The position numbers were made by a program, and so were the translations under genes. Positions 42,018-44,761 of a DNA stretch of 64,000 nucleotides are shown one piece after another. The notes beneath the pieces are model-generated. The model ran no database searches. It was given only the letters and a program-made list of their open reading frames with translations, and had not been told where the DNA came from. This DNA comes from Oscillospiraceae bacterium. Its GTDB lineage: Bacteria > Bacillota > Clostridia > Oscillospirales > Ruminococcaceae. Location: the NCBI GenBank assembly GCA_009776305.1, contig WRLY01000002.1, positions 1-64,000 of the forward strand. Reading direction: 5' to 3'. How positions within the stretch are numbered: the stretch's first letter is position 1; every line of letters starts with the position of its first letter.

Positions 42018-42398
42018 TTAATCGTTTTCTACATTTTTCTTATGAAACATCTCCCTAAAACCCACAAAAACCAACAACCCCGCAAACAATTTTCTAAGCG
42101 TTTTCTCATCTGTAAATCCCAACAGAATAGCCCCTGCCGCCACCCCAAACGCTCCCGAAACGCAAACAGGCAGGATAATTCGCCATTCAATAAGCTTGTT
42201 TTTTGTGTGAATCAGAATTGAAATAAGTGCAATCGGCAGAAAGAAAAGCAGGTTAATTCCCCCCGCCTTTATTTGTTCAGCACCGGCAAAAACCGTAAGA
42301 TAAATAATCAGTACAAAACCGCCGCCAAGCCCCATAGAAGCCGCTACTCCGGTTAAAAACCCCGCCGCAATTATTGCCGCTGAAAAAAAGTCTGTCAT
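42018..42398 (-). CDS. Half-size TSUP/TauE-SafE transporter, second subunit
   Basis: Membrane protein of 126 residues with four predicted helices. The family start is MTDFFSAAIIAAGF and GVAASMGLGGGFV carries the Gly-rich TSUP motif (about 17-29). I chose ATG at 42398, which overlaps the upstream partner's stop as ATGA; a longer frame upstream lacks the motif order. TSUP proteins export sulfur compounds such as sulfite or sulfoacetate. Full-length members have about 250 residues and two such halves, so this gene and its partner probably form a heterodimer. Confidence 0.85.
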   Translation of the reverse strand: MTDFFSAAIIAAGFLTGVAASMGLGGGFVLIIYLTVFAGAEQIKAGGINLLFFLPIALISILIHTKNKLIEWRIILPVCVSGAFGVAAGAILLGFTDEKTLRKLFAGLLVFVGFREMFHKKNVEND

Positions 42399-42745
42399 AA
42401 AAACAAAATCCTCACAGCCGAAATGAATACCACCGCCCCGAATATTCTGCGAAGCAGGGAATTGGGGACTTTTTTCAGCAATAACGCCCCTGTAACCGCT
42501 CCGAGAATTCCCCACGGAATATAGGAAATCGCGGCTTTATAATCAAGATTGCCTTTCAGCGCATAAACGGCAACAGACAAAAGGCTGAGGAAAAATATTA
42601 CCGCCACCGACGTAGCGTGGCTTTTGCGCGGTTCTAATCCCAAATATCGCAGCATCGGCACGGCGACCACCCCGCCACCCGAGCCGAAAAGCCCGTTCAG
42701 AAAGCCGCATAAAGTACCGAGTATATATTTAAAATGCTTTTTCAT
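42395..42745 (-). CDS. Half-size TSUP/TauE-SafE transporter, first subunit
   Basis: Membrane protein of 116 residues with four helices. GFLNGLFGSGGGVVAVPML (about 14-32) is the N-terminal TSUP motif, then PRKSHATSVAVIF (about 39). The stop overlaps the next start (ATGA), indicating coupled synthesis at equal amounts. Substrate unknown. Confidence 0.87.
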   Translation of the reverse strand: MKKHFKYILGTLCGFLNGLFGSGGGVVAVPMLRYLGLEPRKSHATSVAVIFFLSLLSVAVYALKGNLDYKAAISYIPWGILGAVTGALLLKKVPNSLLRRIFGAVVFISAVRILFL

Positions 42746-43379: not shown

Positions 43380-43409
43380 GTTTGTCCCTTTCTTTTTTGT
43401 GCTAAATTT

Positions 43410-43438
43410 ATTATACAGTAAAAATTCCGATTTGTCAA
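43410..43438 (-). promoter_or_regulatory. Promoter of the DUF1292 gene
   Basis: On the minus strand TTGACA (43438-43433), 17-nt spacer, TATAAT (43415-43410), 31 nt before the ATG. Confidence 0.9.
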
Positions 43439-43535
43439 TAATAAATCCTGCATTTTCAAGAAAAAAATTGAAGTTTTTTATTGAATTTATGCAAAATTAA
43501 TAAACAATTGTTGAAAAGATTGTACACAATGACTA

Positions 43536-43564
43536 TTGACTTTGTTGTTTAATTATGGTAATAT
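43536..43564 (+). promoter_or_regulatory. Promoter of the long noncoding RNA
   Basis: TTGACT (43536-43541) and TAATAT (43559-43564), exactly 17 nt apart. A start about 7 nt downstream is expected near 43571. No ribosome site plus ORF follows. Confidence 0.75.
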
Positions 43565-44192
43565 TAAATCACGGAAGAAGTTACGGAAAACTTTTAACAA
43601 GGGAAAGCCACCGGACGGGCAAACCTAATTGGAAGCAAAAGCGGAAACGGCGGAGTAAGCGGCAAGAGTAACGATGGTGAAATTACCGAAACAAACGGCG
43701 AAGAAGCGAAAAGCGGAAAATAGGGATTTCAAAAAGACGACGGAGCAATGGCTTTAAACCGAGAAAAGCGCGGAGCGATTTGAGAGGCTTTGAAAGGCAT
43801 TACTTTAAATCAACCTGTAAAAGTGAGTAAGTTATCGGAAGCCGAGGCGGGGTTTTCAAAAAGCGGCTGAACAACTATGCAGATGATGAAGCAAGGTAGG
43901 TCGTGAGAAAACCAAAATGTATAATTCTGCCGTAAATTAAAGAATTGTATAAATAAGACCGAGAAAGGAAGCGAGTCCAATGGATGCAGAATTTAAATGT
44001 GCCAGCGCAGTTTGTGGCTCGTATGCCGATTAAGCGCCACTTGAAATCGCGGTTAAGCAGAGAAGACTCAAGCGGTCGGAAAGTTTAACGGGTTTAAGTT
44101 TCGGACTTATCCGAATATAAAGCTTAATAAGGAATTAGTAGTCGTGAATGCGTCGGCAAACAGCTATTTGTGGAGAATCTGCAGCGAAATAA

Positions 44193-44410
44193 TCGTGAAA
44201 ACAATTAAGTAGTGAAAGCGAATTCGTGAAAATGAAAAGAACGCGTAAACGGTAAAATCGTGGGAACGAGGAAATCGTGAGAGCGGGAAAGTAATGGAAA
44301 CGAGGAAAATCGTGGGAGCGAAAAAACGTTGAAACGAGAAAAATTGCTAAGGCGGGAAGTTCGTGGGAAAGCGGAAAAAACGCGGTAGTGAATATTTCGC
44401 GAAAATGCGG
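44193..44410 (+). repeat. Array of 13 mini-hairpins at 17-nt spacing
   Basis: Each unit is a 3-4 bp stem with a tetraloop or hexaloop, for example TCGT-GGGA-ACGA, TCGT-GAGA-GCGG, TTGC-TAAG-GCGG and CGC-GGTA-GTG. Loop starts are 44197, 44214, 44228, 44245, 44262, 44279, 44296, 44314, 44330, 44348, 44365, 44384 and 44401; the spacing is 14-19 nt with a mean of 17. Most loops are GNRA (GAAA, GTAA, GGGA, GAGA, GGAA). Stem sequences vary while pairing is mostly kept, one unit (44292-44303) is degenerate, and linkers are A/G-rich. Confidence 0.75.
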
Positions 44411-44599
44411 AAAATCCGAAAAAGTAGCTTGAAAATTTATATACCGGTAAAAAATGTGTTAAAAAGTGTTTGATGCCGACTAACGGTAAAGAAAGCTTTT
44501 TGATAACGACCGGAATTAATCGCGAAAGCGTTTAAATAAAAAAATGTAAAGTTTCAAGTGAATCTCTTTATTAAGAAGGAGAAAAATTAAAATATAATG

Positions 44600-44633
44600 C
44601 CCGCGCAGTTTTACTGCGCGGGTTTTGGTTTTG
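44600..44633 (+). terminator. Terminator of the long RNA
   Basis: CCCGCGCAGT and ACTGCGCGGG form a perfect 10-bp GC-rich stem with a 3-nt loop, followed by TTTTGGTTTT. Confidence 0.9.
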
Positions 44634-44761
44634 TCTGCTCAAAAAATACTGTTTTTTCATTGTATATAATTTAATTTTCTGCAAAGCTATAGTAATTTTC
44701 TTCAAAATATGTTATACTTTACTTTATATGGTTTTGCACCAAATCGGAAAGGCGCGAAGAA

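Follow-up and report, generated by a model that had tools for sequence, protein, structure and literature searches.

Comparison of homologous loci points to a large structured RNA encoded at positions 43570 to 44633 of the window, by which we mean the whole 64,000-nucleotide stretch of DNA analysed here, and to an apparently undescribed class of such RNAs that spans this bacterial family and reaches at least one other in the order. The comparison supports a gene for the RNA, a conserved structure, a conserved genomic context, starts that are complementary to 16S rRNA, and stops that are kept immediately behind those starts. Our best explanation, which we hold tentatively and at somewhat less than an even chance, is a stand-alone trans-acting structured RNA that would capture or sense initiating ribosomes. 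Features lie on the + strand unless a minus strand is given.

The sequences support a separate gene for a large RNA, with a promoter and a terminator of its own. The predicted promoter (TTGACT-17-TAATAT with an extended -10, TATGG) occupies positions 43536 to 43564, the start was placed by the conserved CACGGAAG box, and the end is an intrinsic terminator at 44599 to 44633, whose stem of 10-11 pairs is conserved and includes two compensated pairs. A search for promoter-like sites found 6 against 4.0 ± 2.0 in shuffles, so that the window promoter taken alone is within chance, and we accept it as real because it is conserved rather than for its score. Promoter, start box and terminator are all retained in the alignment of the five nearest relatives, and a near-consensus promoter (TTGAC-n-TAnnnT) is present in the corresponding place in 40 of 60 DUF1292-flanking loci of the family. 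The good promoter and strong terminator proposed in the first-pass annotation are therefore borne out, with conservation carrying the case.

Other claims of that annotation hold for this copy and less so for the class. At 64.7% purine, the window RNA has a skew (towards purines or pyrimidines) that is equalled in only 0.16% of same-size segments taken along the 64 kb at steps of 50, but purine richness is not a class feature, as 40 homologues average 56% with a minimum of 47%. The small repeats noted there do exist (44250 to 44344, period 17/34), but these purine-rich 17/34-base units are confined to an insertion at 44213 to 44441 (borders approximate) most of which the other five close copies lack; such insertions, one of them with repeats, are the reason why the window copy, at about 1.06 kb, is longer than its close relatives (0.6-0.74 kb). 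Finally, the RNA was described as noncoding and free of ORFs. We found no + strand ORF of at least 40 aa within 43570-44633, but a 17-codon ORF with an extended Shine-Dalgarno lies in the most conserved block (43980-44033), and the description as a noncoding RNA stands as regards a discrete large RNA gene but not as regards the conserved ribosome-binding sites, minimal ORFs and micropeptides predicted in the class.

A DNA search of 99 relatives returned the window's own genome and 16 others, all with the same genus label; five genomes (G012, G023, G027, G046 and G054) have matches in several pieces immediately upstream of dnaD, and one of the 16, the match in G020 (L011), which sits between ilv-like genes, was rejected as a copy on inspection. 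G054 has a further partial match, to the 5′ portion of the RNA, at a contig end (G054:C5:56-113), possibly a second copy or an assembly duplicate. In the alignment of six close copies, besides promoter, CACGGAAG and terminator, a core (AAAGG..GCGAGTCCAATGGATG, with small changes) and a 3′ block are also conserved, and the GGTGAAATTACC element at 43676 to 43687 is nearly invariant in the subclade. With one mismatch allowed, the core pattern occurs in 22 of 396 family genomes and 12 of 126 genera (reversed control, 0), and, searched for in exact form among named records, in 25 contigs, most of them from MAGs that bear the label Oscillospiraceae, Ruminiclostridium, Ruminococcus or Clostridia. Two pattern loci, L073 and L096, were rejected as coding false positives.

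A synteny sample was taken from the upstream DUF1292 flank of 60 family loci. Forty-three flanks scored at least 10 for a promoter, three of which (L133, L149 and L157) were dropped on inspection and counted among the 20 remaining loci that served as control, leaving 40. The 3′ limit of each RNA was set at the first strong terminator, and 6 of the 40 without a clear terminator were cut at about 1.1 kb, giving lengths of 0.53-1.6 kb. ORFs of at least 80 codons occur on the RNA strand of only 2 of the 40 (L139 and L151) against 4.4 ± 1.6 in shuffles, and on the opposite strand of 17 against 11.7 ± 2.6, so an unrelated gene may occupy some of these loci. The synteny sample and 45 pattern loci together make up 85 RNAs, which are related, so that counts over them are not independent. 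ORF and module counts leave out L073, L096 and, in doubt, L085, which is probably real because DUF1292 adjoins it; module-ORF lengths leave out L054, L057, L058 and L069 (same-genome or near-twin copies), and the ORF1 hairpin tests leave out L028, L057, L058, L059 and L069.

The constant neighbours of the RNA are a DUF1292 gene and a 6S RNA. The divergent DUF1292 gene (PF06949; 43044 to 43379, minus strand), which has its own consensus promoter at 43438-43410, shows conserved synteny, lying upstream of the RNA in 49 of 52 pattern loci, with the two false positives and G054 as the exceptions. DUF1292 is present in 144 of 158 family genomes. Directly after it comes a 6S RNA (RF00013; 42833 to 43041, minus strand) with a full-length structural alignment and 38.2 bits against a gathering score of 46.4, and the two stand side by side in the same order in 10 of the 13 genomes searched; 6S RNA was also found in 5 of 8 named contigs scanned. 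A 6S RNA below the Rfam gathering score, as here, is easily overlooked by annotation in this lineage. Beyond it, at 42018-42745 (minus strand), two overlapping ORFs in different frames look by eye as if a single membrane-protein gene had been split in two, perhaps through a frameshift or an error of assembly.

Downstream of the RNA the gene differs between genomes: dnaD in part of the genus, and elsewhere a PfkB-like kinase gene, a Sir2-like gene or others, the names being read by eye from translations. As the 3′ neighbour varies while DUF1292 and 6S RNA stay, we reject the role in dnaD function or replication control that had been suggested for this RNA. A cis-acting leader of dnaD/dnaI, or a spacer without function, would fit the place of the RNA ahead of dnaD, as seen in the window and in several relatives, yet a terminator precedes dnaD, the downstream genes vary, and both the structure and the synteny with DUF1292 are conserved, which makes either of them very improbable.

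We examined the structure by RNAalifold on the six copies, which predicts 132 pairs, 27 of them with at least one change on both sides. Compared with column shuffles, z is -7.5 for the ORF1 domain, -9.2 for the 3′ domain and -11.7 for the whole (the last from only 25 shuffles), and the reverse complement of the alignment folds more weakly. Pairing is conserved among relatives, and it is strong and strand-specific, the overall structure having been assessed within the window subclade. In the predicted 3′ domain, which is without ribosome sites, CTTGAAAATTTATAT (44428 to 44442) pairs with ATGTAAAGTTTCAAG (44544 to 44558, with an AUG-UAA inside the helix) around a CCGG stem and a GAAA-loop hairpin, TCGCGAAAGCGTTT (44520 to 44533); a GCGTTTA element similar to this hairpin recurs in part of the homologues.

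The ORF1 hairpin joins GCGAGTC (43971 to 43977) to GGCTCGT (44016 to 44022) and can be followed more widely. The core arm GCGAGUCC is found in 52 of 68 loci, and a partner of at least 7 pairs, located 25-85 bases past the AUG, in 48 of 68 compared to 8.5% after shuffling. In the 16 loci with variant arms, the arms fit their own partners (permutation p 0.001); set against the consensus arm on the same partner region, 8 of the 16 pair longer, 7 tie and one (L120) does worse. The six-copy fold pairs the core GUCC with GGAU and not with the ORF1 partner, suggesting that alternative folds compete.

With a structure this strong in the subclade, including a 3′ domain free of ribosome sites, the fold itself might be the function, as in an ornate large RNA, and strong Shine-Dalgarno sites would then bind 30S subunits as a shield against nucleases or as a means of tying the folding of the RNA to the supply of ribosomes. 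Bound ribosomes are known to protect mRNA (STAB-SD), in support of such a ribosome-stabilised scaffold. Similarly, the two-codon ORF of axe-txe raises downstream expression, possibly via mRNA protection, according to the available text of PMC8708949. Up to 7 minimal-ORF modules per RNA and the keeping of their stops nevertheless exceed the needs of a 5′ shield, and the overall structure in its favour is that of the window subclade only; we regard the scaffold as unlikely.

The ribosome-capture reading draws on a module that is repeated across the homologues, in which a Shine-Dalgarno extended along the 3′ tail of 16S rRNA is followed by (U)CC-N-AUG, and which can pair with much of the free tail (AGAAAGGAGGUGAUCC-like) directly before the AUG. 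What follows this AUG is either an ORF of 15-34 codons in a covarying hairpin or a minimal ORF of 1-3 codons. AUGs with a strong Shine-Dalgarno number 216 in the 40 RNAs compared to 59 ± 9 (maximum 80) in 20 dinucleotide shuffles, and the pattern GG-n(3-9)-CC-N-AUG has 248 sites in the 85 RNAs. The lengths of the ORFs behind these 248 sites are bimodal, with 10 of 1 codon, 79 of 2, 34 of 3 and 82 of at least 15. Lengths of 1-3 codons account for 123 of 248 module ORFs against about 16% of the 1416 other AUGs in the same RNAs, and lengths of 2-3 codons for 113 of 248 against 9% (for the other AUGs, 6.5, 5.2 and 4.0% have 1, 2 and 3 codons, respectively). Both the second codons of minimal ORFs (UAC 17, AAA 9, GCU 7, UGC 7 and others) and their stops (UAA 69, UGA 32, UAG 22) are mixed, indicating that the stop itself is what is kept.

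Counted once per AUG, minimal-ORF modules in the 40 loci number 81 on the RNA strand versus 2 on the opposite one; in the 20 remaining loci there are 4. At least one is present in 33 of the 40 synteny-sample RNAs and 27 of the 45 pattern loci (7 and 18, respectively, are without), with at most 7 per RNA. The clearest minimal-ORF array seen is in L112 (the flank of G193, oriented), at some 0.7-1.1 kb from the start of DUF1292, where similar modules in tandem include AAUAGGUGUGACCAAUGGAAUAA (AUG-GAA-UAA) and AUG-GAC-UAA.

Furthermore, the bases upstream in the modules approach the complement of the 16S tail GGAUCACCUCCUUUCU, which was found exactly in 4 of 14 genomes, the remaining assemblies probably lacking complete rRNA. 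For the modules, predicted duplexes with the tail come to -12.8 (n = 123) and -16.6 (n = 85) kcal/mol; the figure for 469 starts of long ORFs (first ATGs of ORFs of at least 150 codons, taken as starts) is -8.1 kcal/mol. The module energies are inflated because the definition of a module already contains CC at -3,-2. Positions outside the definition agree, with U at -4 in 76-88% compared to 27% and A at -6 in 76-84% compared to 35%.

A variant of the module, GUGAGUCC, is without AUG and occurs 59 times in 35 of the 85 RNAs. The GUG frame of these AUG-less modules is short (within 8 codons) in 59% of cases against 32% for the +2 frame, which is suggestive only. An AUG-less motif, GGNGTGAGTCCRMS, has five matches in ten genomes, three at this locus and two outside it. 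In many AUG-less modules, GUG-AGU-CC[AG]-CCN frames would read M-S/R-P-P, and a AGUUUAGCUU-like string downstream is shared. In the window, GGTGAAATTACC resembles the GG-n-CC module and may be an AUG-less relative of it.

The existence of AUG-less modules, together with a complementarity that can extend past the usual Shine-Dalgarno (UCC against the GGA of the tail), would also suit an RNA that pairs with the tail so as to guard, or help mature, the 16S rRNA 3′ end in 30S subunits that are idle. That 30S subunits are degraded by RNase R, as stated in the available text of PMC10901742, fits such a role. We consider it quite improbable, since AUGs that are kept and stops that follow at once speak for initiation and termination.

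Among the DUF1292 flanks from other families of the order, modules were found in 3 of 20 (L164, L169 and L173), all three fetched from one family, and the scan gave no module array in the other 17; five of the 20 (L158, L162, L164, L171 and L177) were read at length. Some of these flanks have promoter-like sites, and L160 has one lone AUG-stop module. The relative in L164 (G489) is compact, at about 280 bases, and carries two AUG-less modules, AUG-UAC-ACG-stop, a basic 15-aa peptide and, ahead of the terminator, AUG-UAC-AGU-stop.

In the window, the core module consists of the extended Shine-Dalgarno AGAAAGGAAGCGAGTCC (43962 to 43978; predicted duplex of -11.8 kcal/mol with the 16S 3′ tail) and ORF1 (43980 to 44033), whose 17 codons read MDAEFKCASAVCGSYAD. 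A module ORF of about this length is present in all six closest copies. The frame of an overlapping AUG at 43984 runs for 34 codons in the window and for only 8 in G046. Throughout the class, 76 of the 85 RNAs have a module ORF of 15-34 codons (exactly one in 72, two in 4) and 9 have none.

Such ORFs would also be expected of a polycistronic messenger for several very short proteins, an often acidic peptide of 15-34 aa plus basic peptides of 8-18 aa ending -LN(I/F), with the minimal ORFs serving to space or couple the cistrons. There are 28 peptides of 8-18 aa ending [LTI]N[IFLV](x), compared to 3.75 ± 1.9 in shuffles, and in the 11 that end LNI or TNI most changes in the codons for Leu, Asn, Ile and stop are synonymous; a GUGAGUCC-like module lies within 45 bases after 19 of the 28. 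For ORF1, the products share M[DE]..E-like starts by eye, and changes by codon position (131/123/185) are most frequent at the third. Its sequence is nevertheless poorly kept, with 118 non-synonymous versus 56 synonymous single-difference codons over non-independent pairs, and its coding signal is weak. Moreover, a messenger of micropeptides would leave the long structured stretches and the minimal ORFs unexplained, and the window copy has only ORF1. We therefore see it as possible but doubtful.

No minimal-ORF module was found in the window copy and its five closest relatives (L001-L006), so the array of modules cannot be the general mode of action there. The window copy is best read as a reduced member of the class, with one full module and its hairpin ORF1, the 3′ domain kept and purine-rich repeats gained. 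In these repeats, GUG codons stand behind GAGGA and open ORFs of 5-6 codons (44277, 44312), possibly a local means of generating modules. The repeats at 44250-44344 are lineage-specific, and some of their TGA stops overlap GUG (GUGA), as if forming short coupled ORFs.

From these features we infer capture or sensing of ribosomes. Under this hypothesis, 30S subunits would be captured at over-strong module sites, and on minimal ORFs the ribosomes would terminate or fall off at once, so that the RNA would hold or recycle ribosomes without making protein. A ribosome translating ORF1 would open the hairpin and thereby switch the fold. By rough analogy with the action of 6S RNA on RNA polymerase, the RNA would buffer or sense free ribosomes. 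The available text of PMC5303271 describes translation as best at intermediate anti-Shine-Dalgarno pairing and as decreased or equal for the strongest; it also gives a higher optimum for B. subtilis than for E. coli, so a 'too strong' Shine-Dalgarno may not hold as such here. The many AUG-less modules count against ribosome capture, as plain initiation does not explain them, and so do the conserved -LN(I/F) endings, which suggest that some peptide products matter.

Scanning with Rfam 15 (cmscan, gathering scores) gave only a tRNA elsewhere in the window and 0 matches in 14 homologue loci, and a permissive scan gave no match reaching half its cut-off, in agreement with the first-pass view that the RNA fits no described large class. 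A very divergent known family is still conceivable because the scans at gathering scores also missed the neighbouring 6S RNA. No 6S match to the large RNA itself was obtained by cmscan in the window or in 43400-44760. Like 6S RNA, which is encoded beside it, the large RNA would be a stand-alone regulatory RNA, and the proposed analogy is that of a decoy, of a promoter there and of a translation start here; it is several times longer, however, has no model match, and would bind ribosomes and not RNA polymerase. GOLLD, ROOL and OLE are likewise long and structured, with their own gene and no long ORF, and to our knowledge have never been described with arrays of SD-AUG-stop modules. They differ in that our RNA has no match at Rfam gathering scores and shows chromosomal synteny, and we set them apart by these scores and by their description in the available text of PMC12286853. 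A phage origin was rejected, with 0 matches in phage records and 0 exact core matches in viral contigs.

The phage lambda bar RNA is a minigene, and minigene expression is inhibitory. The class shares with it and with axe-txe a strong start followed by a two-codon ORF, and the minigene arrangement SD-AUG-X-stop is found in the class, in the same 33 and 27 RNAs as above, but not in the window copy. The two-codon ORF of axe-txe, which shows that such an ORF can be regulatory, is a single one in a toxin operon in the available text of PMC8708949, whereas here several stand on a separate, terminator-ended RNA. With tmRNA the class shares a short internal reading frame that would engage ribosomes. 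No tmRNA or tRNA match was found in the large RNA, and a separate tmRNA (RF00023) scores above cut-off in 10 of 13 genomes (not in G000, G012 and G162); a divergent tmRNA is unlikely because tmRNA is found elsewhere in the genomes. As in leader peptides and attenuators, a short ORF starts inside a hairpin and ORFs stop just before the next Shine-Dalgarno, but no regulated gene lies on the predicted transcript here. We found no literature on a noncoding RNA with DUF1292, and such an RNA is undescribed among the matches listed by a literature search that had most subscription journals outside its reach. We call the class new, apparently so, because no Rfam family fits and no description stands among those literature matches.

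Taken together, these results allow a still more tentative reading, in which the new class would be a translation-side counterpart of 6S RNA at the same locus, holding or counting ribosomes by arrays of over-strong, 16S-complementary starts with near-empty ORFs behind them, and with a hairpin-gated ORF as a switch that ribosomes drive. Proteins that idle ribosomes are known; within the reach of the search, no RNA class devoted to engaging ribosomes, through repeated pairing with 16S rRNA and through minimal ORFs, has been described. The class occurs in many genera of this gut and rumen lineage and, because the RNA sits directly beside 6S RNA, RNAs that tune transcription and translation alike may come from a single locus.
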